Origin: a virus
IMG/VR virus record: IMGVR_UViG_3300010148_003076
Coordinates: 1 to 26,442 of that record
Length of the DNA: 26,442 nt
Direction: 5' to 3' (one strand)
The notes beneath the pieces are model-generated. The model was not told the DNA's origin, searched no databases, and saw only the letters and a program-made list of their open reading frames with translations. Shown here one piece after another: positions 2,127-26,442 of the stretch (its first letter is position 1; each line of letters opens with the position of its first letter). Position numbers and translations under genes: made by a program.

Positions 2127-3179
2127 ATGACTGCTCTAACGAATCGTTATGTAACGCTACAAAAAGAAACAGCTTATGGCACAAAGCCTACTGCTGCAAC
2201 CGCAAGCTTATTCTTGGGTGAAGTTGATGATGAGTCATTCTCACAAAACTTTGACCTATTGACCCGCACCGACATTTCACGATATGGTGCTTCTAAGTCT
2301 GTTCAAGGCTTGACATACTCCGAAGGTGATGTGAACCTTCCTCTTCAACTTGATAACTTTAATTCATTCTGCTTATTCTCTGCATTCGGTCTTGATACTT
2401 TCAACAATGGTTCAAGCCCAAAGACTCACACTTTGACCGAAGTAACCAATGATGCACTATTCCCTTCATTCTGTATTCGTGTTGGTCGTGAAGATCGCGA
2501 ACATACATACTGTGGAATGGTATTGAACAGTCTTTCACTATCTGCAAATATCAATGAATATGTTATGATGAGTTATTCTTTCGTAGGCTGTGGTGAAATC
2601 GCTACTGCTGGACTTTCACTTCCAGGTGGCGCTGCACCTTCCGACCCACCTGCATTCTCAACCGTTGATGCGCTACACTTCGCTAAGGCATACGTTGAGT
2701 TTGAAAACGAAGCCGACTCAAGCAATTACTCATTACTTGTTAAATCTATTTCACTTGAAATAAACATGAATCGAGATCAAGACAACGCAAGTTCACTTGG
2801 TAAGGCTACTTACGCAGTCGCACCTCCACCTCAAGCAAGAGAGATTACAGGTTCAATTGAACTTAACACCTCAAATGACCTTCCTGGTGCAGCTACTAAC
2901 AATGAACCAACTTACGATGAGCTAAGATCATTCCTTCTTCACAATGGATCAGACACCGCACCTGCAATCGGACTCAAGTTTGAAGATGCAAGCGGTAATT
3001 ATCTTACAATCATTCTTCCAAAGGTCGTTTATGAATCTCCAGAACTAAATGTTTCTGGTCGTGATACCTCAACTCTAAGCATGAATTTTGTAGTCTTGTT
3101 TGATGAAACATTAGGCTACATGGCTAAAGCAGTTATTGGCAACGATGGTATCAATGGCGACTCTGCTATGACTGCTTGA
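2127..3179 (+). CDS. Major tail tube protein
   Basis: This 350-residue protein opens with RYVTLQKETAYGT, followed by a FLGEVDDESFSQ strand and a DISRYGASKSVQG segment. That layout is typical of siphovirus tail tube proteins, which form hexameric rings around the tape measure. The middle and C-terminus continue as beta-rich segments (for example YAVAPPPQAREITGSIEL and NYLTIILPKVVYESPELNVSG), the latter resembling the last strands of tube proteins. Position between the terminator and the tail-assembly chaperone is canonical. The ATG has GAGAGG eight bases upstream. The protein is on the long side for a tube subunit and may carry an inserted surface domain. Confidence 0.75.
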   Translation: MTALTNRYVTLQKETAYGTKPTAATASLFLGEVDDESFSQNFDLLTRTDISRYGASKSVQGLTYSEGDVNLPLQLDNFNSFCLFSAFGLDTFNNGSSPKTHTLTEVTNDALFPSFCIRVGREDREHTYCGMVLNSLSLSANINEYVMMSYSFVGCGEIATAGLSLPGGAAPSDPPAFSTVDALHFAKAYVEFENEADSSNYSLLVKSISLEINMNRDQDNASSLGKATYAVAPPPQAREITGSIELNTSNDLPGAATNNEPTYDELRSFLLHNGSDTAPAIGLKFEDASGNYLTIILPKVVYESPELNVSGRDTSTLSMNFVVLFDETLGYMAKAVIGNDGINGDSAMTA

Positions 3180-3421: not shown

Positions 3422-3769
3422 ATGCCAGTATTGAAAAAAGAAATTGAGCTAGATGATGGCCGCAAGGTTTGGGTAAGACAAGCCTCTGGTCTTGACAAAT
3501 TAAAGATTGAAGCAAAGCAAGGAAGGGTGATGCGTAAGTGTCGCCACTTTGGTTCTGATCTTACACAATGGACTGACGAGCAACAAAACGAGTTCTTGGA
3601 TATGTGCGAAGATGCAGGGTGTGGATTCACAGCACAGGTTGAAGCCTGGTTGCCAACCTGTCTCCTTGATGATGAAATAGACGCTAACACCCTTACTTCA
3701 GCAGAGATGGTTCGTATTCTAAATGTGATAAGGGGAGACGATAATGAGGGCGCAGTCCCTTTGGGCTAA
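3422..3769 (+). CDS. Tail assembly chaperone, short (G-like) product
   Basis: This 115-residue protein is the zero-frame product of a two-frame chaperone gene. It starts with a beta-rich segment (LKKEIELDDGRKVWVRQASGLD) followed by helices, and ends with GAVPLG and a TAA at 3767-3769. It lies between tail tube and tape measure, the invariant place of the lambda G/GT type chaperones that load the tape measure and recruit tube subunits. The slippery run CCCTTTGGGC covers its last codons, and its stop directly follows. The same message therefore yields this short form and, by -1 slippage, a longer form. The region before the start has only a weak AGTGAAAG ribosome binding site. Confidence 0.75.
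   Translation: MPVLKKEIELDDGRKVWVRQASGLDKLKIEAKQGRVMRKCRHFGSDLTQWTDEQQNEFLDMCEDAGCGFTAQVEAWLPTCLLDDEIDANTLTSAEMVRILNVIRGDDNEGAVPLG
3757..3766 (+). promoter_or_regulatory. Programmed -1 ribosomal frameshift site (CCCTTTGGGC)
   Basis: Read in the zero frame, the sequence is C CCT TTG GGC TAA. It holds two overlapping canonical X-XXY-YYZ heptamers, C-CCU-UUG (3757-3763) and U-UUG-GGC (3760-3766), followed at once by a stop codon. Slippage by -1 on either one enters a frame that is open to 4056 and encodes a plausible charged C-terminal domain. GAGGG at 3746-3750 lies 6-9 bases upstream and could act as a stimulatory internal Shine-Dalgarno. A 6-bp stem (TCCCCT 3781-3786 with AGGGGA 3806-3811) lies downstream but is weak. 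Confidence 0.85.
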
Positions 3770-4056
3770 TATACAGGGCTTCCCCTATCCTGTGTTCAAC
3801 CTTCAAGGGGATTCTTCCAAGCGACCTGTTCGACAGATACGATCAGCCTGGTGGCAATTGGAAGCTGGAGCTCGATTTGCTTGTAGCAAACGAGATAGCC
3901 GACCAACTAAACGACTCAATGGCAGACAAAAAGAAGTCAAAACGAAAAAACGCAAAATCGGCAGTAGCTCGCAGGGATCAAAGGCGACAAACTTATTCGG
4001 CAAGCGAAACAGTCAAACAACTCAATGCTTTAATAGATAATAAGGGGGGTGAATAA
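3766..4056 (+). CDS. Frameshift extension (T-like domain) of the tail assembly chaperone
   Basis: This frame has no start codon of its own in a sensible place: stops at 3742 and 3745 close it upstream, and it is entered by -1 slippage. It continues LIYRASPILCSTFKGILPS, then a helix-rich segment with NWKLELDLLVANEIADQLND, a basic run KKKSKRKNAKSAVARR, and ends NALIDNKGGE with TAA at 4054-4056. The extension is 96 residues, so the fusion is about 211 residues, close to a GT-type layout (short beta/helical N-domain plus a charged C-domain that binds the tape measure). The tape measure start follows three bases after the stop. A competing 98-codon frame (3744-4040) gives a low-complexity basic sequence and is rejected. 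Confidence 0.8.
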   Translation, partial: LIYRASPILCSTFKGILPSDLFDRYDQPGGNWKLELDLLVANEIADQLNDSMADKKKSKRKNAKSAVARRDQRRQTYSASETVKQLNALIDNKGGE

Positions 4057-4058
4057 AG

Positions 4059-6893
4059 ATGGTTAGACAAGGTGGTTCGCGAGTATTCTTTGACGTAGTA
4101 GGCCAGATGCAAGCAGCCAGGCTTATCTCCGATGCTGAAGAAATGGGAACTGTCGTTAGAGCAATTATGATGGATGCTTTTGATGGTATCAAAGGCTCAC
4201 TTGATGGCATCTTTGACTCCGTAGGCGCAGCTATTGAAGCAGTCCGTGAACCAGCTTTGGCTCTCGGTGAGTCTCAAATCTATTTCCGTAAATTCTTTGA
4301 CTTTGACGGTGTTAAAGAATACGAAGAAGCTATTGTCGATCTTGGTGTCGCATTCGGCTTCACAGGCACAGAAGCACTTGAGGCTGGTGCAAGAATGGCT
4401 CAACTTGGAGGACTATTCGGATCGGGAGAATCAATTGTAGCGGGAACAGCAGTCGGTACAGCCTTTGGTATGATTGGTGGTATGGAGACGGAAGAAGCCC
4501 AGACGAGGCTTATTTCACTTGCTCAACAGACAGGATTTATCTATGAAGGAATGGGGAAGGCAGCGTTCTTTGCTGCTGATGCTGAAACCCAGAGACAAGT
4601 CGTTATGCGAAACTCTCTGTATGTGTTAGACCAACTTAACACCGTTGAGAATAACTCGGTTGCTACTATGCAACAACTTTCAACAGTTATGGATCAGTTT
4701 TCTGCGTCTGCTACAATTGCTAACATGAGCATAGCAGAGCAAGCTGCACTATCGGCTACTTTGGTTGAGTCTGGTGAGTCTGCATCAAAAGCAGGTCGTG
4801 GTTTAAGACAAATGCTACTGCGAGTCGCAAGCGACACAGGAGGCGCAGCAACCGCACTACATGAGTTTGGTGTGGCTACACAGGACATTAACGGTGATAT
4901 GGTCGGACTAACTCGTATCATGCAACAGCTCAAAGATAACGGGTTTGATCAGTTAGATTCAGCCCAACAAATGCAACTTGCTACTTCCGTTGCAGGTGCA
5001 AATCACGCAACAAGATTCATCAAACTAATGGAAAACTTTGACAGGGTAACTACCTTGACTGCTCAAGCAATAAGTCGTGAATCTGGGGCTATTACAGAAT
5101 TGAATAAAGTGATGGACACTGCCACATTCCAGCATAACCAGATGATAGCTGCACAGGAGACGCTTGCGGCAGAGATAGGACAGGAGCTCCTCCCTGCCAT
5201 GACCGATGCTGAAATGGCATCTTACAGCTTGAAGGCTGGCTTCTTGAGTCTATTACAGATGGAAGGAGATATGGATTCGTTAGGTGGTATGTTTGAAGGT
5301 TTAGCAGGTGATCTCGGAAGGGCTGCTGCAAGAGGTGTCATAGTAGCGGAAGGAACATATCAAATCGCAGGTGGGGCTTTTGAGGCATTCTTGAATTATC
5401 AGTCCTTGCTAATATCAATCAAGGTATATCGTGCCATTATGAGGCAAAACCTGGATTTACAGAACATGGTTTCACAAGGCTTGCTCGGTCAAAGAGGGGC
5501 GCAGCAACAAATCAATCAACTAAACGGTATTGAGGTTAATAAGATTGGCGAAAAACTGTATATGAAAGGTGTTCAAAAAAGGCTTGACGCTACCCTTCTT
5601 GACATTGAAAAACAAAAACTTGGTATGGCTACTGTTGCCGAGAGACAAGAATTGGCTCAAATAAACATATCAAAAGAATCACTACAAGTAGCTCAAAATA
5701 AAGTCCAGGCGGAGACCAGAAGATTACAGGTTATAGGTTTAGCAAAGAAAATGTCTATGGACGATCTTACCACAGCTTCTCATAATACATCTATAAAAAT
5801 ACAAAAAGAAATCGCACATCAAAACGAAATCCGTGAGACAATGATGCTCAAAGGCTCGGATGCTATGATAGATAAAATGTCGGCAGCAGACGCACTTGCG
5901 GCATCAGCAGTAAGAATAGGCGTTTTAGAGCAAGAGCAAATACAGATTCAACAAACCGTATACGCCAAGCAAGAGCTTGTCAATATAGAAACCAGAGAAC
6001 TTCCTATACTAAATCAAGTTACACAAGCAAGGATCAGGGAGATTCAAAAGCAACGTGAAGAATTTATTGCGACACTTAACTTGCTCAAAGCAACGGGACA
6101 CTTGACGAAAGCTAAACACAAAGAGATGATGGCGACACTTAATTCTGCTACTGCTGGTAAAAAAATGGTGGCATCGAATCAACTTACGATGGGATCATTG
6201 ATGCGTCTTGAAGGACAGGCTTTGAAATCAGCATTCTCAATCAATAGATTCTCTGCTGCGTCGTCATTAGCAAGCATGGGTCTTATGATGTTTAGTGAAA
6301 GTGAAGATGCTATGCAAATGTCTATGGTTCTAATGGTTATGTCAATGGCACCAGCAATAGGTTCTATGCTAACATTCAAGGCCGCTACTGATTCTGCTAC
6401 GGCATCGTCTGTAACATTCCAAGCAGTAACTACCGCAGGTGCAGCGTTAGTAGCTGTCGGTATTGCGTTTGCTTTGGCAAAAACCATGTTCAAGAATGCA
6501 AGTGAAGATATGCAAGAAACAACAGAGGAACTAACTACTACGTTTGATGATGTTCAACAGTCGGCTGGAGACTTTGCATTTGAACTTGACAAGCCTGGTG
6601 GTGTAACTGACCTTATGCTTGACTTTGGCAACACTACTCAAGAGTCAATGGATCGTGCGGAGAAGTCCGTTCAATCTTTCATGTCGGCAAGAGAAGAATT
6701 ATTCTTTGGATTCTCACCAAGTCGTATGAATCAAACACTGTTCGACCAATTAGTAAATCAAGGTGTGGGAGAGCTATATTACAGAACAGAGCTAAACATA
6801 GCCAATAACTTCTTTGGGCTGACTATTGATGAAATGGTTACACAGATAACGAACCAGGTTCAAGAAAATCTTGTAGCGATAACGGGGTCTTGA
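4059..6893 (+). CDS. Tail tape measure protein
   Basis: This 944-residue protein starts at ATG 4059, preceded by AAGGGGGGTGA. Residues of about 60-400 resemble the TP901-type tape measure core: a helical segment with GTEALEAGARMAQLGG, then SATLVESGESASKAGRGLRQ and a long helix ending near ELLPAM. Residues of about 480-700 are heptad-like and rich in Gln, Glu and Lys, as expected for a coiled coil. Residues of about 733-811 are strongly hydrophobic, with two or three membrane-type segments, as in tape measures thought to help genome passage. Tape measure length sets tail length; at roughly 1.5 angstrom per residue, 944 residues would correspond to a tail near 140 nm (inference). I see no peptidase or lysozyme motif. 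It is followed after one base by the tail tip gene. Confidence 0.85.
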   Translation: MVRQGGSRVFFDVVGQMQAARLISDAEEMGTVVRAIMMDAFDGIKGSLDGIFDSVGAAIEAVREPALALGESQIYFRKFFDFDGVKEYEEAIVDLGVAFGFTGTEALEAGARMAQLGGLFGSGESIVAGTAVGTAFGMIGGMETEEAQTRLISLAQQTGFIYEGMGKAAFFAADAETQRQVVMRNSLYVLDQLNTVENNSVATMQQLSTVMDQFSASATIANMSIAEQAALSATLVESGESASKAGRGLRQMLLRVASDTGGAATALHEFGVATQDINGDMVGLTRIMQQLKDNGFDQLDSAQQMQLATSVAGANHATRFIKLMENFDRVTTLTAQAISRESGAITELNKVMDTATFQHNQMIAAQETLAAEIGQELLPAMTDAEMASYSLKAGFLSLLQMEGDMDSLGGMFEGLAGDLGRAAARGVIVAEGTYQIAGGAFEAFLNYQSLLISIKVYRAIMRQNLDLQNMVSQGLLGQRGAQQQINQLNGIEVNKIGEKLYMKGVQKRLDATLLDIEKQKLGMATVAERQELAQINISKESLQVAQNKVQAETRRLQVIGLAKKMSMDDLTTASHNTSIKIQKEIAHQNEIRETMMLKGSDAMIDKMSAADALAASAVRIGVLEQEQIQIQQTVYAKQELVNIETRELPILNQVTQARIREIQKQREEFIATLNLLKATGHLTKAKHKEMMATLNSATAGKKMVASNQLTMGSLMRLEGQALKSAFSINRFSAASSLASMGLMMFSESEDAMQMSMVLMVMSMAPAIGSMLTFKAATDSATASSVTFQAVTTAGAALVAVGIAFALAKTMFKNASEDMQETTEELTTTFDDVQQSAGDFAFELDKPGGVTDLMLDFGNTTQESMDRAEKSVQSFMSAREELFFGFSPSRMNQTLFDQLVNQGVGELYYRTELNIANNFFGLTIDEMVTQITNQVQENLVAITGS

Positions 6894-6894
6894 G

Positions 6895-9800
6895 ATGAAT
6901 GATATTGACCGACGATTCACCCTTTGGCTCTCTGGGTATTATGAGGACTTCCAGACAATGCGAGTTATTTCCGAAGGTGAAGATTATGCAGAGACTACAT
7001 TCTTTACTAATCGTAGGGATTCTCACGCAGGTAATACAATGGCTGCTCAAGCCTACAATAATTCACGATTTGCGTTTGACTACTTAACCAGGTCATTTGC
7101 TTCTAAAGCTCCCTTGCCTTTAGTCGGACAACACACAACAAGCGAATCAGCATCATTACACAATGAAGGACCGTCTCAATGGCTGACGCATGATCCTAAC
7201 CGTATTGGCTCGACCTTCTATGAGGGAAGGGCTACACTAACCTATCCCGACACATTGGCTGACGCAGCTTCGCTACGAACATTCTCATTTCCAAGAAGGG
7301 CTGACTATTCTCACTTTGCTTCTGGTTGGGGTACACAAAACAGCTATTATGTTCGTCAAGGTGATACCGATGCTACATACGAAAGGTCGTCATTCATAGT
7401 CGATACTGCAAATGGTAATCCGTTTGGTGCTGCTTCAACAAGAGGCTACGGCAAATTCCAGATTGACGGAAGCCTAACTCAACCAAACGATGAATCGGGG
7501 CTTCCAGAAGGAAGAGGTAGCACAGGCTTTGACAATAGCAATTATCGTAGGCATAAGATCATGCACAATTCAAGCCTATGCGGTGTATATCTCGGTGAAA
7601 CAGGTGAAGTAGCGTTTCAATCATCAAGCATAGGACTTCCTTTTGCTTACCTTCACCCTATCAAGTCTCCATCTGGTAAGCCATTCTTCCGTCATTCAGT
7701 ATCAAGGCGGTATGCTGATTGGGTTAGTGCTAATGTAAGCTCGACGGGCGGAGGTAAAAACAAATATGACTTTGCTAATGGTGCTAACTTTGGTAATGTG
7801 GGTGCTCTCGGTGCTGACGATCAATGGTTTCCTCGCAACACTGAACAAGCAACAGTAGTAGCGACAGGTCTTACGTTCAACGCTGGTGCTACTTCCATTG
7901 TCTTACCTGCCTCATTACCAAGCCCACCACCAACAACAAGGATTCTTGACCCAAGTATAGACCAACACTTACCAGATAAAACAAGCGGAACTCCAACGCA
8001 GCTTATTCAAGTAGGGACTGAAATAAAGCAATACTCATCCTTCAGCGTGAATGGTTCTGGTGATGTAACATTCACCCTTACATCTGGTCTTGCTGGAACT
8101 CAAATACAACCAGGCGTTTCATTCTTTCGTTTAACAGATCAGGTTGCAGGTGATAATACCATAACATACTATAACTTAACAGCAGGTGGTACACCAGAGG
8201 TTTTTCCCGTATGGCAATTTAGGCAAGATGTTAGCGACGGTGGAGGGCTACCTTTACTTTGTCATAGAAATGCAGGTGGAGATGTAAGGATAACAGATGC
8301 GAGAACAAGGAACGGTAAAAGTGGTTCACAAAACACACCTGTTTTCACTGTAAGTTCAAATTCAAGTCTTGGTTATACTTACTATCAAATGGTCGTTGAA
8401 TTAGCCAACCATTCTGGATTTCAAACCGACCCTCTATACTTCGCTGCCCGTGATCCATTCTTCACGATGAGTAATGTGTATGGTGAGTTAAATGTTGGAG
8501 ATTACATAACGAAGCAAGGGTCAAGCATACCAGAAAAAATCACTGTGGTAAATGGAGACGGAACAATAGAAACCGACGCAAGCTTTGGTGGTGTGATAGG
8601 TTCTGTATATATTCGTCAAGCAACACATGGTTCGGGCAACGGTGGCAACACAGGTCGTATCAAAGACGGTTTGTTTGGTTATCAACCTGTGATCGTAGGA
8701 GACAGTGAGTTAAACGCTCAAGCAAATGGTGAGAGGTTCACGATTCGTCTTGCTAATCAGTCGTTTAACAAAACTGCATCAGCCGTTCCAGGTCAAGTGG
8801 ACTGTTCGTATATGCTGTCTGTTGGCTACAACAAGAACGAAGCTGGTTTTGCACTTAACGAAAGAGGCAACATGGCGGGTTCAAAGGCTGCTATTACGCA
8901 TTCGTTTAGACCTGTGAATGGTGAAGGTCTTGCTTCAGCCCGCCAAACTCTGTTCACTATGTTTGAGAATGGGACAGTCGGTGAGTCCACATATACTGCG
9001 GATCAGTTATGGTATGACCTTGACCTTGTAGTGAATTTCACTGCACAGGAATACTATGTGTTCCATGACGGCACATACGTTAGCACAGGCTCATTCAACG
9101 CTAAAACTGACGGCACAGCCTGGACTGCTGCTGATCTCTATGGTTGGTCGTTAGGTGTTCACTTCCCAGATGGTCTTGATGCTGTTGATACGACAGGTTG
9201 GCAGACTATGGCAACCATGATAGATCGTGCTGGCTACATTTATGCAGTTAGCGATAGAATGACAAATGGTGCTATACCCTCTGCACAGGTACAGCAAGAC
9301 GATGTGATATTTAGTAAATTCAAAATCAAGAGTATGGTTGATGGTATAACTCAAGGTGAATTTATACTTGACGATGATAGCGATTTAGTGAATCTTCCGC
9401 AGCTTGTTAGTGGTCGGCCTAATTGGAAGATGCTACTTTTCCGTGATAACGACTATCGCCCAATCCATTCAAGCATTGTAACCGCAGTCAATTTCAAGCA
9501 AAATGCGAAGAAGAAATCAAAAGAAATCGTGCTCAAGACCCAAGATTCAATCGGTGAGCTAGACTTCCAATTCCCTTACTTTGACATAGGACAGGAGAAC
9601 GGAGCTCCAAGCCTGGTTGCTCATTATCGGAGATATGATGTTTCAAAATACGCAGAGATATTTCACTTCGGCACTACATCTTTACTCAACCTTAACCCTG
9701 TTCTCGGCTTTGATGAGGATAGCAAAGGCAGTTCTGGTGAATACCTGCCACGATACGACCAGAGAATGCGACTGTATTCATCTCACCCTATACAGATTTA

Positions 9801-12800
9801 CTCAAATGAAAATACCAACGGTCCGAATTATACAGAAGATGCTTGGGAAGTAAGTCGACTGATAGATCACTTTAGACCCGATCCAATAGACCAAACAAAA
9901 ACAAGAGTCATGTTAAAAGCTGACGCTCTCAAGTGGTCGGGGGATCAGATACCTGCTGGTGTTCAAGTCGGTATCAAAGGTATGTGGCGAAACAAAGGTC
10001 ATTTAGGCGGTCTTGGTTCAAACAAATCAACGCCAAACGCAGGGGAATTAGGCTTCATAGCTTCGCCCACTAACGGATCGGAGACTTCACCACACAATGA
10101 AATGAGAGGATTACATACAGTTTTACAGGCTCAAAGCGTCATAACATTTGATGTGATACCCGCAGCTAACTCTCTTGTATTAGCTGACACATCGTTATTC
10201 CCTGCATCTGGAACAGTCAAGATAGGTGGCACAGGAGCTACTGCCTTTGGTTCTGTAACCAAGTCGTATTCAAGCAAAAACGCTACAACATTATTCTTAA
10301 CCTCAACAGTGGGTGATAACTTTGCTGCTGGAACAGTAGTGCGTGAGACAAGTGCTACTGATTATGTTGTCATTGACAAAGAATGGACTCGCTCACTTGT
10401 TGTTGAGAGTATCAGCAACAATGGAGGCTACTTACAATTTAATTTCGTACCAACACCAGATTTCCCTTTCACCAAGTACGAATTTATGGGAGGAACAGGG
10501 TCGGCTACTGCTGACGGTATTCTTGCTAAGAATGACTTAATGACACCGACATTAGCTCCTAATGCAGATTTGATACGCATATATGTGCAACCAAATGCAG
10601 CAGGTATAGCTCACGAACCAGACATGGCTGATCTTCCGAGCCAGGTCTATACGTCAAGTCAAATTCTTGTAAATGGCGGTGCAGGTCAAGCTAATATCAA
10701 GACAACAACGCTGGTAACCTCCCTATCAGCAAATCTTCAAGCTGCATTACCTGTTAGTCTGGGTGTTGGTGCAGGTGGTATCGCTGACGCATTAGAGGCT
10801 GACCTCGCATACCTTTCATTCCCTAAGAAAAGGGGAGGGTCATTCTCACTACGAAATGTCGGCAACTCATACGCTTACAGGAACATTCACACCAGATGGG
10901 CGCGTGATCTTCCGCAGTCTCTATGGTTCCAGAAAACATACGGTGTTATCAGTGAATATCCATACGGTGTTACATCTTGGCGCGATCCTAACTTCTTTAC
11001 TGATGCAGCAACAGCCAATCTTCAAGTCAATTTCAATTCTGGGACTGATACTACAATAACTGTGAACAATTGGCAGAACTTCCCGTATGCTGGTGTTTGT
11101 GAGATATGGACTAACGACCCTAACCCAAGAATAACAAATAATGAACAGGCAATCATGCTTACTTCATTTACTTATGAAGGTAAAACATTTGATTCTGGGA
11201 CAGTCGGCACTTTGGATAATGTCAAGTTTGCTGATCCAAACAAAGGAATTATCGCTACAAGTGGTGTTGCAGGTAATAGAAAGGTCATTTGTCGGAACAT
11301 TGATGGTGATTACAAACACCTTTTCGTATTGTTTGCTGATATGCGAAACGATGGTTCAGCAGATGCAGACGGTGGGACTCGTAAGGAGGACTTCGGTTTG
11401 CTACACCCTATCCAAAGCAATTACAAACTCAAGGTCGTTTGGGCTGACACAGGAAAAGACTTCGTGGATTTGAAGATAGGTGCTGATGCTGATATATGGC
11501 AGTTAAACGCCAAAAAAGACCCTTCTTCAAACAACGCCTGGTCTGGTAATCCAAGCGCAATCATGCTTGACTATGACGGCACACCTATTCTTATTGGAGA
11601 TCGTAGCAACAACACCGAGATATTGCCTCATTATCACAATTGGGAAGATAAAGCAGGTGCATTTGTAATAATTGATTTGTCTAAATTCTTTAACCTTAAC
11701 ACAGAAGCTAATCTTGGTCGTATAGGTCAAGGCGCAGGTGGTATGAAACAGCTTGGAGAATATCTTGTTGAAGAACAGGGAGAACCTACACTGATTGATA
11801 ATTACCATTACCAGGCATCTGCGACATATCAAAACGCAGCTGCACCTATAATTCAACACTTCAATTCGTTTAGGTGGGCTGATGCAAAAACAACATTGAG
11901 CCAAGACATTATTTCAGCATCTCCGATTACACAAAACACTGCTACAATCAATCCTGGTGATACTGAAATACAAGTGGCTGACAATTCCATCTTCCCTATT
12001 TCTGGAACGGGCTTGATAATAAATGGTGATACATTTGATTACACAGGAAAAGGAGGTGTAATGCTCACAGCAAGTCCAGGTGTCTTAGGAACTGATGTAA
12101 CAGGAAATGGAACATTCACTACAACAGGCGGTGGAGCTTCAGTAAATGCCACAGGCAATTACACTGCTGAATTTGAGTTAAGCTCTACTACTGCGGGAAC
12201 ATTCACACCTGGTAGCGGTTGGGGTCACGGTATAACATACAATTGGATAGCGATAACAGGTAAAGCAAGCGGGACTATATCTTCAAGCGGTGGTGGCTTA
12301 GATGCAGCAACAGTATCAGTAGTGCGAAACGACTTCTATACCAATTCTCCTACGATCCAAGTACAAAATATACCTTCTGGTGCAAGCGGTGGGTTTGATC
12401 CTACGGGTGGACTCATTTTGAAATCACAAGGACAGTTAAGATTCGATCAGCCTTTTGCTATCACAAACGCTGGTGCTGGTTTCACATCTAACCCAACATT
12501 CACATTCTCAACAAGCAGCACTGCAACAGGAGTCGCCACATTTAGCAACACCTTACTAACAGGAGTAACGGGTATATCTGGGACTCACGCACCAGGCTCA
12601 ACCATATCGTTTGGATCAACAATCGATTATATTGATGTTGAAAGCACAGCCGACTTCCCTAACAAACTTGGAGTCAATGCTTTCGCAGGTCAAAACACAG
12701 CAGGTATCATTGAGGCAAGAACGACTGATGCACAAGGTAATGAGTATGATATGAAGTATGTCTTTTCCTATACTTCAAAGACTGCAACCAGACTAAGCGG

Positions 12801-15756
12801 TGTCAAGTATCGGCCTGTCAAACAAGGTGAAACGGTTGATACAGCTGCCTCTGGACTTTGGACTACTGATACTTTCACTGTTAGCGGTGTGCCTTCTATG
12901 ACAGCAGAGGGTAGCGTCATTCGTGCGTCGTTAGGTGCTTCATTCCCTATGGGATTCATGCTGAAGCTTGAAGGAAGAATCAAGACACCAGGCATAGGAA
13001 ATTACTACGAGCATGATAAAATACGAGTATATCAGCAATCAGCCTTGTTTGACGATTGGTTCAAGCAAATGACATTACCAGCTTTGTCGGACATAAACAA
13101 TGTTCCAATCATGCGAGACTACAATGTATCGGGCAACGTAGCAGGGGCAGGTACGGTTGAGTCATTCGGCAGTGTGCTTCAAGCCCAAAATAAATCAATT
13201 TTCCAATCACTACGGACTATGGCTCAATCTGCTGGTGTGGGTGATAATGGTTCACTTATCACACTTAACTTCCAGATGGGAAGAGACAACCGCATGGAGT
13301 TTAGACCTACTTACAATTCTGGTATAAGTCTTGACAGAAACAATCTCAAGGTGTCCGATCTAAAGACAAGTAAGGCCAAATCATTCAGCCATGTAAGAGT
13401 CTTGTATAACGGTGGGGATTCATTCGTAACATTCCCTGCATTGAATTACAAAGACAATGTGCGATTCAAGTTTGTTAGCGCAGTCTCTATTAGTTCCTAT
13501 GAGCAAGCTCTTGAAGTTGCTAAACAGGAGTTCCAAAAGAAAAAAGAAGCTTCATTCAAGGTTGAAGCAGAGGTTATTCGTGAGTCAAACGAAACGCAAA
13601 GAACTGGTCCAATGCTTGAGAATGCTCGCTACGGATATATCGCTGATCCAGCCGTTCAATTAACAGGTCGCAACGGTGGGTATTGGACTGCTGGCAGAGG
13701 TGGGTTGCATTTCACAGGGCAGAATAACGCACTTCACGGCAACATTCACGGATATGGCTTACTTGACTTACTAAACTATCAAGCAGTAGCAACAATGGGT
13801 ATCGGTATCGGAGGTTATGACGGTGCTGCAAACTACACCGACACATACGGTACAGGTCTAGCTCATTATCCTTCAAACGACTTATACAACAGCTTTCCCT
13901 GGACTCAAATGTATTATTGGTATGGTGCAAAGTCTGTATCTTATGGGGTTCAAATAGTGCATATACCAAAGGGTATGCCGAAGGTTAGCGAAACCACAGG
14001 AGAGGAGCTCCGAGTATTCATCTCCGATGCAGTAACCACAATACCAAACACTGATCGCCAAGACAATTTAACCGCAGGTAAGAAGTTCAGTATTCACTTT
14101 GCAGACTACGGCTTTGACAAAACACAATCTGGAACTAAGACACCAAAGCTTCAAGCAACACAGCAAGGAATTGAGACAATCACAACGCTTGGATCAGGCT
14201 ACTTTGAAGTGCCTATCCCTGCTTCTTATTGGTCGGCAGGTAATACCGCAGGTGCAAAGATGATTGTTTCAGTCAATGCAGAATACTTAGCAGCAGTAGC
14301 AAGACACAAGACGGCTGACAAATTCGGTGGCAACGCAGCTACGGGTCAAACAGGTTTGTTATTGGCTGGAGGACAAACTGCACCTACATTTAGCAACGCT
14401 AACGAGTTCTCAATCTTCCCTCTCGGTATTCGTGAATATCCAGAGTTAGGCACATCAGCAACATATCGTGCGCCATACTACGCACCACGAATACACATAA
14501 CCGACGACATGAATTTCATACCAGGCACTTATGTTCAATACAATGATTCGTACATTGACATTAACGAGATAATGTACATAACAAGGATTGAATATGAATA
14601 CACACCAAAGAGTCTTGATAGAGTAAAGCTGACACTTGAACGTGAGGTTGGTCGTATTCCAGACGGTTTAGAAGGCTATCTTGCTACAAACCCACTTGAA
14701 GATACAGGCGCAAGCGGCGGCGGCGTTGGTGGTGGCGGTGGAAGCACACCTACTAAGCCCGATGGTGGCAGTACAGGAGGCAGAGGCGGTGATGAGGCGA
14801 CTGAACCTTTCAAACCTAACACCCCAGAAACATTCCCATTCGGCTACACAGGCGGGCAAGCGGGCGTGAACCTTAGTAACACTTCACCTCCACTGCAAGG
14901 AGGAACTGACGCTGATCTTGGCCTAACACAAACACCGTTGATAAGTGGAAGCGACTACATTAGGCTAAACAATGACACAGGTATTCAGCAAATGGGGCAA
15001 CAGGGAGCTTCAATCACACCTTCGTTTAGTGCTAACAACCTTGACTTAACTACTACAAACAAATTCAACAACACAATGAGTCTTGATACTTTGCTACCTA
15101 ACGGTGTGCAAGGAATACCAGGGCAACCAAGACCTACTAAGATACCTCAAAAGACAAAGGGACTTGCTGGAATAGATGCTAAGTTTGTATCGGCTGAAGG
15201 CGAAGCTGCTGAAACAGACGATGGTTGGATATTGCCTGGTGTCTCTGGAGCTGGTTTATCGGAAGCCACAACAAATGTTCAGCATTCTCTAAATCTATAC
15301 GGCACAGTGCCGATGGACTCTGCACAACCTGTTATCGGATTGACTGCGTATGTGTCTGCTGAAATCCTTGATGGCGAAGAGAAGTTTACACTTGAAACAA
15401 CAATCACTTGTGAAGATACAGGAGAGAGCATAACTCATACGCATACTGAAGGTGTATCACAAGTCGGAGGGGCGAACATTGTTAATCGTAAGAAGATAAC
15501 ACTACTTCCTCAACAATACTTTGCATCAGCAGGTGTTGAGGGTCGCAGATTAAAAGCAAAGATAGTGCGTAAGCCAGGACAAGGTGATGATAATATGTCA
15601 TTCTCAAGTGTTGTTATTCATGGTGTTCACTTTGAGAATGTAGTGCATAACAATCAAGGCACACCTGCTACGGAGAACTTAGCTGCGTTTGCAGGTGATG
15701 AAAAAGATACTACTTCCGATGGTTTGAATCTAAACAGTGGTAGCAACCCTCTATGA
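6895..15756 (+). CDS. Giant tail tip / central fibre protein (2953 residues)
   Basis: This one gene takes a third of the window and replaces the usual separate distal-tail, hub and fibre genes. Approximate parts: residues 609-762 resemble a LamG/concanavalin domain; 807-890 (SMVDGITQGEFIL..., KMLLFRDNDYRPIHSSIVTAV) resembles the first part of a siphovirus tail hub; 2052-2230 resembles a second hub part (VLQAQNKSIFQSLRTMAQSA, then YEQALEVAKQEFQKKK). A short module of the form AD-x-x-x-FP-x-x-G, often followed by F-x-Y-x-GK, recurs around residues 1102, 1396, 1700 and, more weakly, 1921. Residues 2604-2634 form a Gly/Ser-rich linker, followed by Pro/Thr/Asn-rich sequence and a final beta-sandwich-like domain (about 2790-2912), a good candidate for the receptor-binding tip. 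Domain calls are by eye. It is the last gene of the plus-strand operon. Confidence 0.8.
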   Translation: MNDIDRRFTLWLSGYYEDFQTMRVISEGEDYAETTFFTNRRDSHAGNTMAAQAYNNSRFAFDYLTRSFASKAPLPLVGQHTTSESASLHNEGPSQWLTHDPNRIGSTFYEGRATLTYPDTLADAASLRTFSFPRRADYSHFASGWGTQNSYYVRQGDTDATYERSSFIVDTANGNPFGAASTRGYGKFQIDGSLTQPNDESGLPEGRGSTGFDNSNYRRHKIMHNSSLCGVYLGETGEVAFQSSSIGLPFAYLHPIKSPSGKPFFRHSVSRRYADWVSANVSSTGGGKNKYDFANGANFGNVGALGADDQWFPRNTEQATVVATGLTFNAGATSIVLPASLPSPPPTTRILDPSIDQHLPDKTSGTPTQLIQVGTEIKQYSSFSVNGSGDVTFTLTSGLAGTQIQPGVSFFRLTDQVAGDNTITYYNLTAGGTPEVFPVWQFRQDVSDGGGLPLLCHRNAGGDVRITDARTRNGKSGSQNTPVFTVSSNSSLGYTYYQMVVELANHSGFQTDPLYFAARDPFFTMSNVYGELNVGDYITKQGSSIPEKITVVNGDGTIETDASFGGVIGSVYIRQATHGSGNGGNTGRIKDGLFGYQPVIVGDSELNAQANGERFTIRLANQSFNKTASAVPGQVDCSYMLSVGYNKNEAGFALNERGNMAGSKAAITHSFRPVNGEGLASARQTLFTMFENGTVGESTYTADQLWYDLDLVVNFTAQEYYVFHDGTYVSTGSFNAKTDGTAWTAADLYGWSLGVHFPDGLDAVDTTGWQTMATMIDRAGYIYAVSDRMTNGAIPSAQVQQDDVIFSKFKIKSMVDGITQGEFILDDDSDLVNLPQLVSGRPNWKMLLFRDNDYRPIHSSIVTAVNFKQNAKKKSKEIVLKTQDSIGELDFQFPYFDIGQENGAPSLVAHYRRYDVSKYAEIFHFGTTSLLNLNPVLGFDEDSKGSSGEYLPRYDQRMRLYSSHPIQIYSNENTNGPNYTEDAWEVSRLIDHFRPDPIDQTKTRVMLKADALKWSGDQIPAGVQVGIKGMWRNKGHLGGLGSNKSTPNAGELGFIASPTNGSETSPHNEMRGLHTVLQAQSVITFDVIPAANSLVLADTSLFPASGTVKIGGTGATAFGSVTKSYSSKNATTLFLTSTVGDNFAAGTVVRETSATDYVVIDKEWTRSLVVESISNNGGYLQFNFVPTPDFPFTKYEFMGGTGSATADGILAKNDLMTPTLAPNADLIRIYVQPNAAGIAHEPDMADLPSQVYTSSQILVNGGAGQANIKTTTLVTSLSANLQAALPVSLGVGAGGIADALEADLAYLSFPKKRGGSFSLRNVGNSYAYRNIHTRWARDLPQSLWFQKTYGVISEYPYGVTSWRDPNFFTDAATANLQVNFNSGTDTTITVNNWQNFPYAGVCEIWTNDPNPRITNNEQAIMLTSFTYEGKTFDSGTVGTLDNVKFADPNKGIIATSGVAGNRKVICRNIDGDYKHLFVLFADMRNDGSADADGGTRKEDFGLLHPIQSNYKLKVVWADTGKDFVDLKIGADADIWQLNAKKDPSSNNAWSGNPSAIMLDYDGTPILIGDRSNNTEILPHYHNWEDKAGAFVIIDLSKFFNLNTEANLGRIGQGAGGMKQLGEYLVEEQGEPTLIDNYHYQASATYQNAAAPIIQHFNSFRWADAKTTLSQDIISASPITQNTATINPGDTEIQVADNSIFPISGTGLIINGDTFDYTGKGGVMLTASPGVLGTDVTGNGTFTTTGGGASVNATGNYTAEFELSSTTAGTFTPGSGWGHGITYNWIAITGKASGTISSSGGGLDAATVSVVRNDFYTNSPTIQVQNIPSGASGGFDPTGGLILKSQGQLRFDQPFAITNAGAGFTSNPTFTFSTSSTATGVATFSNTLLTGVTGISGTHAPGSTISFGSTIDYIDVESTADFPNKLGVNAFAGQNTAGIIEARTTDAQGNEYDMKYVFSYTSKTATRLSGVKYRPVKQGETVDTAASGLWTTDTFTVSGVPSMTAEGSVIRASLGASFPMGFMLKLEGRIKTPGIGNYYEHDKIRVYQQSALFDDWFKQMTLPALSDINNVPIMRDYNVSGNVAGAGTVESFGSVLQAQNKSIFQSLRTMAQSAGVGDNGSLITLNFQMGRDNRMEFRPTYNSGISLDRNNLKVSDLKTSKAKSFSHVRVLYNGGDSFVTFPALNYKDNVRFKFVSAVSISSYEQALEVAKQEFQKKKEASFKVEAEVIRESNETQRTGPMLENARYGYIADPAVQLTGRNGGYWTAGRGGLHFTGQNNALHGNIHGYGLLDLLNYQAVATMGIGIGGYDGAANYTDTYGTGLAHYPSNDLYNSFPWTQMYYWYGAKSVSYGVQIVHIPKGMPKVSETTGEELRVFISDAVTTIPNTDRQDNLTAGKKFSIHFADYGFDKTQSGTKTPKLQATQQGIETITTLGSGYFEVPIPASYWSAGNTAGAKMIVSVNAEYLAAVARHKTADKFGGNAATGQTGLLLAGGQTAPTFSNANEFSIFPLGIREYPELGTSATYRAPYYAPRIHITDDMNFIPGTYVQYNDSYIDINEIMYITRIEYEYTPKSLDRVKLTLEREVGRIPDGLEGYLATNPLEDTGASGGGVGGGGGSTPTKPDGGSTGGRGGDEATEPFKPNTPETFPFGYTGGQAGVNLSNTSPPLQGGTDADLGLTQTPLISGSDYIRLNNDTGIQQMGQQGASITPSFSANNLDLTTTNKFNNTMSLDTLLPNGVQGIPGQPRPTKIPQKTKGLAGIDAKFVSAEGEAAETDDGWILPGVSGAGLSEATTNVQHSLNLYGTVPMDSAQPVIGLTAYVSAEILDGEEKFTLETTITCEDTGESITHTHTEGVSQVGGANIVNRKKITLLPQQYFASAGVEGRRLKAKIVRKPGQGDDNMSFSSVVIHGVHFENVVHNNQGTPATENLAAFAGDEKDTTSDGLNLNSGSNPL

Positions 15757-16642: not shown

Positions 16643-17638
16643 CTATAACCATTCAATAGTATGCTGTTGTGAAGGTGGAATCCAAAAGTCGTCTGGTGTC
16701 TTGTATTCATCAGCCAGCTTGCTCTGCATGAAGCGAGAATCACGCTCAAATGCGTTATCGCTGTCAAAATCTTCTTCTTGTAATGTGCCGTCAATCCATA
16801 GACCCACAGCTGCACAAGTGTTGCATTCGTAAGACTGCTTCTTTTCCTTTGGTCGCCAGCCGTCTTTGAATTTCTGTTCTAACTCTTCAAGTGTAATCTC
16901 CATTCTTAAACCACGCCCTGCTACTCTTATTGACTCTTGATCCCAATGTTTCGCTTCTTCCCACTTATCGGGCCACTTTTCATAGACTTCATACCAGGAA
17001 TTGAGACTTTGCTTAGGGCAGTGATAGCAACCTATTCTGTCAAACGACAAGTAAAGACAATTGCCGATGCCGAGATGATCCAGATAAGCCATGCAATCAT
17101 CTTCTGTCCAGCCCCATTCAATAAGAGGATAGCGTAAATTCATCGTTTTGTTCTTCTTGCTTGGCTTCTGTACTCTGTTTGGTTCATCGGCAGCAATACC
17201 CACATAAACACTGCCGTATTCCTTTTGCTCACGTTGTAGTGGTAAAACTTTAGCTTCACGACTCCACCAACAAGGATAGGCTTTGAGAGGTGCGCCTCGT
17301 ATCTTACCCTCGTTTGCGCCTCTTGTAACTGCGCCATAGAACCAATCATCCCATGATTTCTTTGACTTGAGGAGCTCGACTCTCGGTGAGCCTGGAAACT
17401 TCTCTTGAATATAGCAGTCAATGAATAACAAGTAGTCGTATAACTCTTGAAACTCAAATGTTGTGTCGGAGAATGCGATACGATGAACAGGATATTTTTC
17501 TGGGTCATTCAATTCAAGCATACGCAGTAGCATAGCTGTTGAGTCCTTGCCTCCAGAAAAGCATACGAATCCCTGATCTGCATACAGAAGGTCGGACTTT
17601 GAATCTTCAAATTCTATCTCAAGACATTCTTCCGTCAT
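16643..17638 (-). CDS. PP-loop ATPase, PAPS reductase / DndC-like protein
   Basis: The 331-residue protein carries the PP-loop signature SGGKDS at residues 28-33 in the context GFVCFSGGKDSTAMLLRM, followed by the strand-helix segment IAFSDTTFEFQELYDYL. This is the adenine nucleotide alpha-hydrolase fold of the PAPS reductase and DndC families. A Cys cluster GCYHCPKQS in the second half and a later CNTC pair could bind a metal or iron-sulfur centre. The start was set at 17638, which overlaps the primase stop as ATGA; a GTG start 30 bases earlier is less likely. Viral members occur widely, and their substrate is mostly unknown. Next to three DNA methyltransferases a role in nucleobase or DNA-backbone modification is possible, but assimilatory sulfate reduction is not supported by context. 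The protein ends EWL. Confidence 0.8.
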   Translation of the reverse strand: MTEECLEIEFEDSKSDLLYADQGFVCFSGGKDSTAMLLRMLELNDPEKYPVHRIAFSDTTFEFQELYDYLLFIDCYIQEKFPGSPRVELLKSKKSWDDWFYGAVTRGANEGKIRGAPLKAYPCWWSREAKVLPLQREQKEYGSVYVGIAADEPNRVQKPSKKNKTMNLRYPLIEWGWTEDDCMAYLDHLGIGNCLYLSFDRIGCYHCPKQSLNSWYEVYEKWPDKWEEAKHWDQESIRVAGRGLRMEITLEELEQKFKDGWRPKEKKQSYECNTCAAVGLWIDGTLQEEDFDSDNAFERDSRFMQSKLADEYKTPDDFWIPPSQQHTIEWL

Positions 17639-18627
17639 AGCTGCACCGTTCCATCGTATCTCCAACACTTACCTTTGCACATTCCTTTGCCTACAAACCA
17701 GCGACATGACTGTGAGCCTTCATACTCAACAATAGATGCTAAGTGCTTACGACTTATGGATTCTTTGAAATCACGCCAACCGAGAGGTTTGATGAACTCA
17801 ATGGCTTCTTCAACGCATTTATTCTTCTGATCCACAGTTAATGTTGTTGGGTGGGCGAAATTCTTGAGGTTTTCAAGCAAATGTTGAGCTAGTGCTACTC
17901 TTACATGATGAGTCGGATTTGTTGTGTAAATGGACTCTAAGCAGGGCATGATAGGTATTGTCTCCGCACTTACAATATCACCTACCATAGTGTCGTATTC
18001 CACGCTTGTTTGCTCTGGAGGGTTGTTATGTACCCACTTAACCAGGCTGAACGTGCTTTCATGCTCGTAAAACGGGTCATGGTGGAAGTCATGCAGTCTT
18101 GGGACATTGGGTATTACATAGCCGTGAGGATCAGCAGCAAATTTCACTGCATCTATGGCTACTGCATATCTTTTACGCTTAGGATTCAAGGTGTTAGGTA
18201 TTCTGCACAGCCTATCCACCGTTCCTATGCAGTCTAAAGTGGCTAATCCATCAGCCATCTCACGCTCGTATCGCACTAATTCAGTCGGCCAGCGATCTTC
18301 ACGCACAGGTTCTTTGAATATCTGGTGAATATGGAAGCCACGACCCGTAGCGACTGCTAAAACTGTGCCTTCAAGCCTGTTAATTAGCGTAGCTGCGTCT
18401 GTTTTGACCTGTGGATCGTCCATACCGTCAAAATCCCACCATGCTCTGTCAATTATGGCTGTATTGTAGTCAAACACCTGGCGATAGCCGTTCCATTTCA
18501 TACCACCAAAAGCGTATAAGCTGGTGTAGCAAGCGGTCTTATCCCACATTTTCTGCACATAGCGCGTAAAATCTGCCTGTGTAGCGCATTGTGTACGCTT
18601 TAGTCCTATTTCTCTCGGAAATAACAC
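17635..18627 (-). CDS. Archaeo-eukaryotic primase (AEP) catalytic protein
   Basis: The 330-residue protein shows the AEP motifs in order: motif I WWDFDG with D65 and D67 (metal-binding hDhD), motif II GRGFHIH at residues 95-101, and a motif III-like segment VDRLCRIPNTLNPKRKR around residues 140-160. These fit a primase or primase-polymerase of the PriS-like superfamily, which makes primers for the DNA polymerase encoded in the same operon. The last 25 residues contain three cysteines (CRWFVGKGMCKGKC), possibly a small metal-binding element; no full PriL domain is visible. It uses a GTG start at 18627 with GAGGGGGAG upstream, overlapping the zinc-ribbon stop as TAGTG. The stop overlaps the next gene as ATGA. 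No helicase domain is present. Confidence 0.8.
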   Translation of the reverse strand: MLFPREIGLKRTQCATQADFTRYVQKMWDKTACYTSLYAFGGMKWNGYRQVFDYNTAIIDRAWWDFDGMDDPQVKTDAATLINRLEGTVLAVATGRGFHIHQIFKEPVREDRWPTELVRYEREMADGLATLDCIGTVDRLCRIPNTLNPKRKRYAVAIDAVKFAADPHGYVIPNVPRLHDFHHDPFYEHESTFSLVKWVHNNPPEQTSVEYDTMVGDIVSAETIPIMPCLESIYTTNPTHHVRVALAQHLLENLKNFAHPTTLTVDQKNKCVEEAIEFIKPLGWRDFKESISRKHLASIVEYEGSQSCRWFVGKGMCKGKCWRYDGTVQL

Positions 18628-20113: not shown

Positions 20114-21634
20114 TTACAAATCAGCAACAAGGACTTCGGTTAGCATCACCATAGAAGCAATTGAAACGGCAGCACGAAGGGAGGACTTGACTACACTTGC
20201 TGCGTCAAGCACACCTTCTTCACGAAGATCAGCAAATCTTCTGGTCTTAGCATTAAACCCTCTTGAACCAACACACTTCTCTAATTCTTCAACCAGGTTA
20301 TCTGCTTGAAAACCTGCGTTGATACCTAATTGAAACAACGGCATCTTGAGAGCTTGTGAAAGGACTTCCTGTGCAGCTACGCCTTCTTTTTGCATAGGTA
20401 ATTCATCAACCAGCTTAGATAGTTTAAGTAGTGTCATGCCTCCACCAATAACTACCCCTTCTTTGATAGCAGCCCTTGTGGTATTCAAAGCATCATCAAC
20501 CCGTTCTTTGGTTTCTTTCATCTCTGTGGAGCTCGACGATCCGACTCGGATAACTCCGACACCACCTCTTAACTTTGACATTCTTTCATAGATCGCATCT
20601 GCTAGTTCACGCTCTCCGTCTCCATCTGCTTTGTCGACCTGTTGCTCAAGAATCTTACATCTCTCGGTAATGTCTCCTTTAGCACCGATAAGCCTGGTAT
20701 AATTCTTGCCGATAACTGCCTTCCCTAACAGCCCAGATTCACCAATCAAAGCTTCAAGGTCTGTCATAGCATCATCAAAGTGGAATGGTGGGTGAATAAC
20801 AGCACAGGCTCGCATGACTCCACGCTGAACATTCGTGATGAGAGTTTGCAGAGCTTCGCCTTCAATTCCTTTAGCGATAATCAACAATGCTTTCTGATCC
20901 CCAAGAGCCTTTTCCATAGCAGGTACAATCTGGTCGTTTTGGGTGATAATCTCCCTTGACAAGTGAACATAAGCACCATCTAACTCTGCCTCAAATTTAC
21001 CTTGCTCTGTAATGAAGTAAGGGCTTGCGAACCCTGCATTGATTTCCATGCCTTCAACAATATCAAATGAATGCTTAGTGGTATGACTTTCTTCCACTGT
21101 GATAATGCCTTCGTAGTGTGTTTGTGAAAGAGCATCAGCGATCAGCGCGCCTATCTTAGTGTCGTTATTCGCAGCTATTGTAGCCACTTCAAGAATTTGT
21201 TGTTGTTTTTCTTCTTCATCTTCTGGTTCAATAACGAAATCGTCAATCCATTCTTCACAAGTTGAAAGCATTACCTCAAATGCAGTTTTGATATTAAGTG
21301 GATTCATGCCACTATCTAACAGCGAAAGACCTTCCCTGCATAACGAAGCTGCAATTAGTGTCGCAGTAGTAGTGCCATCTCCACCGTGAGCTTGAGCGTT
21401 GTTAGCCACTTCTTGCACCAGGCGAATACCCATCATCTCGTATGGATCATCGGATTCAATATCGTTAGCAATCGTAACTCCATCATTGATAGCCAAAGGA
21501 GAACCGTATGGTCGCTCAAGCATAACGTATCGTGCTGACGGTCCGAGAGTCGGTGCGACTGCTTCTTCAACCAGGCTTATGCCAGCCATCAGTTTATCTC
21601 TTGCTTCTTTTCCTTTAATTGCCTTCTTCGTCAA
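20114..21634 (-). CDS. groEL: Group I chaperonin, GroEL-like (Hsp60)
   Basis: The 506-residue protein aligns by eye along the whole GroEL fold. The equatorial ATPase segments are intact: TLGPSARYV, the INDGVTIANDIE region, GGDGTTTATLIA, RVDDALNTTRAA (holding the equivalent of catalytic D398) and GVVIGGGMTLL. The apical region keeps VEGMEINAGFASPYF and KGIEGEALQTLI, but the conserved PGFGD segment is replaced by PPFHFDD. It ends soon after MLTEVLVADL and lacks the flexible GGM tail of the usual 540-550 residue proteins. This is group I, not the archaeal thermosome type. The likely start is TTG at 21634, supported by AGGGGTG seven bases upstream and by the conserved GKEARDKLM N-terminus; it overlaps the GroES end by 20 bases. 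It probably folds virion or replication proteins in an infected cell. Confidence 0.92.
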   Translation of the reverse strand: MTKKAIKGKEARDKLMAGISLVEEAVAPTLGPSARYVMLERPYGSPLAINDGVTIANDIESDDPYEMMGIRLVQEVANNAQAHGGDGTTTATLIAASLCREGLSLLDSGMNPLNIKTAFEVMLSTCEEWIDDFVIEPEDEEEKQQQILEVATIAANNDTKIGALIADALSQTHYEGIITVEESHTTKHSFDIVEGMEINAGFASPYFITEQGKFEAELDGAYVHLSREIITQNDQIVPAMEKALGDQKALLIIAKGIEGEALQTLITNVQRGVMRACAVIHPPFHFDDAMTDLEALIGESGLLGKAVIGKNYTRLIGAKGDITERCKILEQQVDKADGDGERELADAIYERMSKLRGGVGVIRVGSSSSTEMKETKERVDDALNTTRAAIKEGVVIGGGMTLLKLSKLVDELPMQKEGVAAQEVLSQALKMPLFQLGINAGFQADNLVEELEKCVGSRGFNAKTRRFADLREEGVLDAASVVKSSLRAAVSIASMVMLTEVLVADL

Positions 21635-21887
21635 GTTCTAACACCCCTATAATTTGCTCTGCATCTATGATATACTGTCCGTCAATCGGTGTATCAACAC
21701 ACCGACCTACGAATATGACTGTATCGCCCTTATGAATCCCACCAAGACTTTCAAGATGTGATGATAGGTTCAATATCTCACCTGTGAATACTGTCCGTTC
21801 TTCCTGTCGTATGACAAGTCCAGACTCCCGCTTCGCTGGTTCAATCAATTCAATTAGCAAACTTGTTCCTATCGGTCTTATTCTCAT
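21615..21887 (-). CDS. groES: Co-chaperonin GroES-like (Hsp10)
   Basis: The 90-residue protein begins MRIRPIGTSLLIELIEP, matching the GroES N-terminal strand. A mobile-loop-like segment RESGLVIRQEE has Leu-Val-Ile where GroES has the Ile-Val-Leu that docks on GroEL. The middle strand FTGEILNL and the later KGDTVIFVG are typical of the barrel. It caps the GroEL ring and closes the folding chamber. The start at 21887 overlaps the methyltransferase stop as ATGA and has GAGGGA six bases upstream; the ATG two codons earlier is too close to that site. Gene order GroES then GroEL, with overlap, is the usual operon order and suggests balanced synthesis. Confidence 0.88.
   Translation of the reverse strand: MRIRPIGTSLLIELIEPAKRESGLVIRQEERTVFTGEILNLSSHLESLGGIHKGDTVIFVGRCVDTPIDGQYIIDAEQIIGVLELDEEGN
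21642..21648 (-). promoter_or_regulatory. Ribosome binding site supporting the TTG start of GroEL
   Basis: AGGGGTG on the minus strand lies 7 bases before the TTG at 21634, within the GroES coding end. Without this start the conserved GroEL N-terminal helix would be lost, since the next ATG is 16 codons later. Confidence 0.6.
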
Positions 21888-24690: not shown

Positions 24691-24696
24691 ACACAA

Positions 24697-24703
24697 TCCC
24701 CTT
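24697..24703 (-). promoter_or_regulatory. Ribosome binding site that decides the C5-methyltransferase start
   Basis: AAGGGGA on the minus strand lies 7 bases before ATG 24690, in the 29-base gap after the upstream methyltransferase. It favours this start over the in-frame ATG at 24729. Confidence 0.6.
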
Positions 24704-24719
24704 ATAATAGTGCTTACAA

Positions 24720-26442
<1,723 letters not shown>

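Follow-up and report, generated by a model that had tools for sequence, protein, structure and literature searches.

We analysed a 26,442-nt stretch of viral DNA (IMG/VR record IMGVR_UViG_3300010148_003076; the whole stretch is hereafter the window) from an uncultured marine tailed virus family, and its tail assembly chaperone gene most probably undergoes the programmed -1 frameshift of long-tailed viruses that produces gpG and gpGT; judging from comparative sequence analysis, we put the probability of this reading at about 0.92. A first-pass annotation of the window had proposed a -1 frameshift in this gene, and slippage at C_CCT_TTG that joins a G-type chaperone to a T-type domain encoded in the -1 frame is supported by the conservation of the site among relatives and by a low ratio of non-synonymous to synonymous substitution (dN/dS). 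The elements concerned are the following.

3422..3769, plus strand: gpG-like tail assembly chaperone gene in the zero frame (115 residues, 12.9 kDa, isoelectric point 4.6)
3757..3763, plus strand: slippery heptamer C_CCT_TTG, in phase with the zero frame
3760..3766, plus strand: overlapping T_TTG_GGC, in phase with the zero frame, judged incidental and not conserved
3763..4056, plus strand: T-type domain in the -1 frame, 97 codons plus TAA

The zero-frame gene ends in GTC (3755), CCT (3758), TTG (3761), GGC (3764) and TAA (3767-3769), so that both heptamers are indeed in frame, as the annotation had stated, with the stop directly after the second. Its further claim that independent initiation in the -1 frame is barred also holds: the frame is closed upstream by TAA TGA at 3742-3747, and no ATG, GTG or TTG lies between these stops and the zero-frame stop of the window. 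Downstream, the -1 open reading frame (ORF) extends to the TAA at 4054-4056, that is, 97 codons counted from 3763, or the annotated 96 when counted from 3766. In-frame motifs of the form X_XXY_YYZ occupy 15 of the 8350 codon positions in the window genes, and the chance of finding one within the 7-codon overlap is about 1%. An independent +1 ORF at 3744-4040 (98 residues) was considered and rejected, the +1 frame being closed 4-17 codons past the stop in many relatives.

Under the proposed model, most ribosomes would read on to the TAA at 3767 and release gpG, and a minority would slip back one base at C_CCU_UUG, with the proline tRNA re-pairing from CCU to CCC and the leucine tRNA from UUG to UUU. 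The slipped ribosomes would continue to 4054 and produce gpGT, a predicted fusion of 211 residues and 23.7 kDa. As in phage lambda, G would then coat the tape measure protein and T would recruit tail tube subunits, the ratio of G to GT being set by the slip. Comparison of relatives establishes that the site exists, that the -1 frame is open and that selection acts on both; we infer the slipping itself, its efficiency, the chaperone role and the archaeal host.

The first-pass annotation had named conservation of the site in relatives as a check. IMG/VR was scanned twice for gpG relatives; from the 164 that the second scan yielded we retained the best 80, and removal of identical copies left 74 distinct loci for analysis. 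The slip core, CCT_TTN or CAT_TTT, is present in the same position in all 74, a recurrence that rules out chance, and the full heptamer is found in 65. The individual sites are distributed as follows.

C_CCT_TTG: 43 of 74 distinct loci
C_CCT_TTA: 5 of 74 distinct loci
C_CCT_TTT: 17 of 74 distinct loci
A_CCT_TTT: 4 of 74 distinct loci
G_CCT_TTT: 3 of 74 distinct loci
G_CAT_TTT: 1 of 74 distinct loci
A_CAT_TTT: 1 of 74 distinct loci

In the Leu-type loci (TTG or TTA), the base preceding CCT is C in 48 of 48, and this C is supplied by five different codons, GTC, ATC, TGC, CTC or ACC, the first of which is the rarest valine codon elsewhere in the gpG genes (62 of 461 other valine codons). The invariance of this base through five codons, one of them otherwise rare, therefore provides strong evidence at the synonymous level for the slip heptamer. 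Of the 26 loci in the Phe (TTT) clade, 9 have a relaxed first heptamer base, and these make up the 9 degenerate N_C(C/A)T_TTT sites among the 74; plausibly, the A-site tRNA of this clade, which would re-pair perfectly on U_UUU, compensates for the relaxed base. Two members, L028 (about locus positions 5330-5345) and L029 (about 1062-1077), have the cores G_CAT_TTT and A_CAT_TTT, in which the P-site proline codon is replaced by a histidine codon and T_TTT is retained. This suggests, at the level of sequence, that slippage could occur on U_UUU alone. Transcriptional slippage was also considered and appears unlikely, the runs being just 3-4 bases long in most members.

Upstream stops close the -1 ORF in all relatives, and downstream it stays open wherever the contig extends as far as its end; none of the relatives covered to that point has the -1 frame stops that, according to the first-pass annotation, would speak against a frameshift. 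Over the T region, the other two frames contain on average 7.4 (zero frame) and 8.8 (+1 frame) stops per locus. Among moderately diverged pairs, the median dN/dS, which the annotation had also suggested to examine, is 0.18 in the -1 ORF and 0.13 in gpG. Just past the slip, the -1 frame reads GLIY or SEFL with little variation, whereas the zero-frame codons over the same stretch vary (G, D, V or A; Q/L, S/N/T). We further counted pairwise codon differences between the slip and the zero-frame stop; the pairs are non-independent, and the counts are thus descriptions rather than p-values. In the commonest overlap class (9 nt, 30 loci), synonymous and non-synonymous differences number 453:254 in the -1 frame and 23:452 in the zero frame, and in the 3-nt class (23 loci) the corresponding counts are 256:110 and 28:199. 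The -1 frame is under purifying selection, including the bases that precede the zero-frame stop. The window is a metagenomic contig and its two ORFs lie in different frames, as would be expected if an assembly error or gene decay had split one continuous gene. However, the arrangement recurs in 74 distinct contigs with both frames under purifying selection, which leaves this explanation with a negligible probability.

Alternatively, the second ORF could be made separately, by termination-reinitiation at an ATG that overlaps the zero-frame stop (TGATG or TAATG). Most relatives in the Phe clade do carry an ATG at +2 of the stop, several of them next to a slip site without the first matching base, and a public relative of T is known as a separate 85-residue protein. 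However, the window and 17 other loci, its nearest relatives among them, contain no ATG, GTG or TTG within the first 16 post-slip -1 codons, L029 and L033 of the Phe clade are devoid of the +2 ATG, and the residues S-E-F-L upstream of the +2 ATG are conserved in the -1 frame while the zero-frame codons change. Reinitiation in place of frameshifting is accordingly very unlikely, whereas free T may be made in this way in addition to the fusion in the Phe clade.

The frameshift reading involves C_CCT_TTG; the first-pass annotation had additionally proposed that this heptamer and the nested T_TTG_GGC act jointly and raise efficiency. The window and L001-L004 have both heptamers in frame, about four separate lineages show an overlap of the T_TTG_GGN type, and the -1 glycine codon is GGG in 9 of the 37 distinct CCTTTGG loci compared with a background use of 8%. 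However, the T_TTG_GGG-type overlap is absent from the other 28 loci, and the -1 glycine (GGN) is kept while its third base varies, the amino acid accounting for GG; T_TTG_GGN reads as a heptamer whenever this glycine codon is GGG. Given that GGA is over-used at the same codon too, the GGG excess is non-specific and may reflect zero-frame composition. Slippage at either heptamer results in an identical junction, VPLGLIY (fusion ...GAVPLGLIYR...), so that the product offers selection no handle on which heptamer is used, and the junction peptide cannot discriminate between the two. Overlapping heptamer pairs number three across the window genes. Joint action is thus improbable and this part of the annotation is not upheld; we judge the second heptamer to be incidental, with a small chance of adding efficiency.

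Upstream of the slip site lies a candidate stimulator.

3746..3750, plus strand: internal Shine-Dalgarno (SD)-like GAGGG, ending 6 nt before the slippery heptamer; proposed 5' stimulator

For the calculation of pairing energies, we took AUCACCUCCU as the anti-SD sequence, assuming it to represent the 16S 3' end. The mean pairing energy with AUCACCUCCU is -7.3 kcal/mol over the 9 nt that begin 15 nt ahead of CCT and -1.3 kcal/mol over the rest of the gene, and synonymous randomisation indicated that the pairing at -15 exceeds what the amino acids require. The source of this signal is the Glu codon four before CCT, which is GAG in 38 of 42 Leu-type loci versus 26% elsewhere in the same genes (Fisher test, 4.5e-17) and in 12 of 14 after clustering at 70% identity (p 1.2e-5); in a control set of Glu codons that precede GGN elsewhere, GAG accounts for 20%. 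The Phe clade displays no such bias (8 of 20 versus a background of 46%), and conserved anti-SD complementarity beyond the amino-acid need is confined to the TTG/TTA group, the window included. A second SD-like stretch near -27 (RG codons) was rejected, since it is explained by the amino acids and its observed pairing falls below that expected from synonymous randomisation. In dnaX, stimulation of frameshifting by an SD sequence is well established (PMC5009743), and by analogy we infer that GAGGG stimulates slipping here. In the window's group, pairing of GAGGG with 16S rRNA, rather than a downstream structure, would probably be the stimulus.

The converse, in which a downstream pseudoknot and not the SD-like element is the stimulator, appears unlikely. 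Sequences of the window's clade would permit an H-type pseudoknot (3771-3778/3788-3795 plus 3782-3785/3807-3810), beginning 7 nt past the slip site and accompanied by two compensatory changes, each in a single sequence. However, its stem 1 is broken in L006 and mismatched in L004, L007, L044 and L008, RNAalifold does not select it and finds 0 compensatory pairs, and 60-nt downstream segments from 31 loci fold no better than shuffled sequences (mean z from -0.5 to +0.2, averaging about 0). A downstream RNA structure is thus not convincingly supported.

The gpG protein was modelled with AlphaFold (AF2) from a 21-sequence alignment as a beta hairpin and four helices, with a predicted local distance difference test score (pLDDT) of 93. 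The top four PDB rows for this model include YqbN (3KLU; Z 4.7, 77 residues, root-mean-square deviation 3.5) and the HK97 tail assembly chaperone (2OB9; Z 4.5, 82 residues, root-mean-square deviation 4.4), with the limit that Z is under 8 and that unrelated chains score nearly alike. Several weak BFVD matches of gpG carry the annotation of tail assembly chaperone, and a Foldseek search of the gpG model against PDB returned nothing significant. The predicted model supports, but does not prove, a shared tail-chaperone fold. For T, whose model has a pLDDT of 80, the matches are limited to a BFVD protein of 45% identity and to weak rows from PDB; among relatives, the invariant residues of the domain are K15, G16, P19, L22, Y26, G31, D38, A42 and R71. 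Two separate viral entries in BFVD, A0A516M8M4 and A0A516MCV4, are 44-45% identical to gpG (an entry of 115 residues) and to T (an entry of 85 residues), the T-like entry being shorter than the -1 ORF. Because G and T are entered there as separate proteins, public annotation of relatives of this type probably misses the fusion.

Several observations weigh against the frameshift reading. There is no convincing match of gpG or T to any Pfam, PHROG or NCBIfam family; no structural match of gpG exceeds Z 4.7, which is weak; in the overlap classes of 6 nt (8 loci) and 15 nt (12 loci), the -1 frame has no clear synonymous excess; and the proposed SD effect is based on codon bias and on pairing energy with an assumed 16S 3' end that may not be that of the host.

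The chaperone gene pair sits between the genes for the tail tube (PF18906) and the tape measure (PF10145), as is characteristic of the G/GT pair of Caudoviricetes.

2127..3179, plus strand: tail tube protein (PF18906 Phage_tube_2, E 1.1e-25), presumed partner of the T domain
4059..6893, plus strand: tape measure protein (PF10145, E 1.5e-18, and PHROG tape measure families), presumed partner of gpG

The ATG of the tape measure gene at 4059 lies two bases past the -1 frame stop and is preceded by an SD-like GGGGGTGA at 4045-4052. Directly 3' of the tape measure gene is an ORF of 2953 residues (6895-15756) without a Pfam match, presumably encoding a giant tail tip or receptor-binding protein.

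The host is likely archaeal, perhaps a member of Poseidoniales. A PolB gene is present in 12 of 12 long relatives (61-74 kb), and the best PolB matches listed from a phage collection come mostly from tailed viruses of haloarchaea, at 22-24% identity across about 90% of the protein length. The window also encodes a Hef-like ERCC4 nuclease, and its tail and replication modules are divergently transcribed, an arrangement described for Apasviridae (PMC12999244). Against an archaeal host, and against a place among the archaeal tailed viruses of the magrovirus/Poseidoniales virus type, a search for PCNA (PCNA_N) found none, a scan of GTDB species genomes with gpG and PolB identified no relatives, and the window's GroEL is of the bacterial type (NCBIfam E 2e-132), the match of the GroES-like protein being weak; many bacterial phages also carry GroEL/GroES. 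The two chaperonin genes are adjacent on the minus strand (GroEL 20114-21634, GroES-like 21615-21893), among otherwise archaeal-looking replication genes.

Other features of the minus strand include three consecutive DNA methyltransferase genes (21884-26138), two recognised by Pfam (N6/N4 and C5 types) and the third by eye from a DPPYGL motif. In addition, four minus-strand proteins of replication or DNA modification share a C-terminal ...WL tail (HTIEWL, DTREWL, EELGWL and PQAEWL).

16643-17668, minus strand: WL-tailed replication/DNA-modification protein
21884-23293, minus strand: WL-tailed replication/DNA-modification protein
23284-24729, minus strand: WL-tailed replication/DNA-modification protein
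24720-26138, minus strand: WL-tailed replication/DNA-modification protein

In a 20-kb replication region of the relative L137, 7 of 30 predicted genes encode such a tail (one ending in WV), and PolB ends in W followed by L, I or V in 8 of 8 relatives checked (L137, L139 and L140 being among the loci with WL tails). No WL tail occurs among the plus-strand tail genes of the window. Archaeal PolB carry PIP boxes, and the WL tail may serve these proteins as a common docking peptide that binds, for example, a sliding clamp.

Long-tailed phages generally use G/GT frameshifting, in agreement with the first-pass annotation. The lambda gpG/gpGT pair has the same architecture and presumed role (PMC5009743) but a different slip site and no detectable sequence relation. 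Both the mechanism and its occurrence in archaeal viruses are known: -1 frameshifts in the chaperone genes that precede the tape measure gene are reported for the archaeal tailed viruses HVTV-1, HCTV-1, HCTV-2 and HCTV-5 (PMC5009743, PMC8211752) and Hardycor1 (PMC7911831), and the sites reported for HCTV-1, HCTV-2, HCTV-5 and Hardycor1 are unlike the C_CCU_UUR or N_C(C/A)U_UUU sites of the window's family. The annotation had called the site one of few in archaea should the host be archaeal; this is only partly supported, as an archaeal host is likely (PolB, Hef-like nuclease) and the same gene pair already provides -1 cases in haloarchaeal viruses. Genes 129/130 of the haloarchaeal siphovirus HVTV-1 (Druskaviridae) match the window in gene order, with a tail-region gene, the chaperone (annotated both as 417 bases and as a joined product) and the tape measure gene, and they resemble it in a short acidic G, a -1 ORF whose end adjoins the tape measure gene and a basic T tail. 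The HVTV-1 DNA, however, has G_GGA_AAG as its candidate slip site, and a search of the phage collection found no sequence similarity to gpG. Escherichia coli dnaX likewise has an SD-like stimulator a few bases 5' of its -1 heptamer (PMC5009743), but it is a cellular gene and also has a downstream stem-loop, whereas in the window's family no downstream structure is supported and the role of the SD-like element is presumptive.

As far as the literature surveyed shows, what is new is the occurrence in this virus family, the use of C_CCU_UUR and U_UUU as its slip sites, and the SD-like element; a limited survey, which does not prove novelty, returned no report linking an internal Shine-Dalgarno sequence, frameshifting, an archaeal virus and a tail. 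The findings add a large family of uncultured marine viruses to those with a G/GT frameshift, and the appearance of T as a stand-alone short protein in public data implies that genomes of this group are probably mis-annotated at this locus. If the host is archaeal, the 74 distinct natural sites would inform what an archaeal -1 site needs, and stimulation by an internal SD on archaeal ribosomes would become testable. Only tentatively, and at somewhat less than even odds, we suggest an evolutionary swap within an archaeal virus family, between an internal SD combined with C_CCU_UUR and an SD-less clade with U_UUU in which a mismatched or non-proline P site is tolerated. If true, this would be a natural exchange between two ways of setting one protein ratio, and Archaea would possibly have their first example of a frameshift stimulated by an SD sequence.
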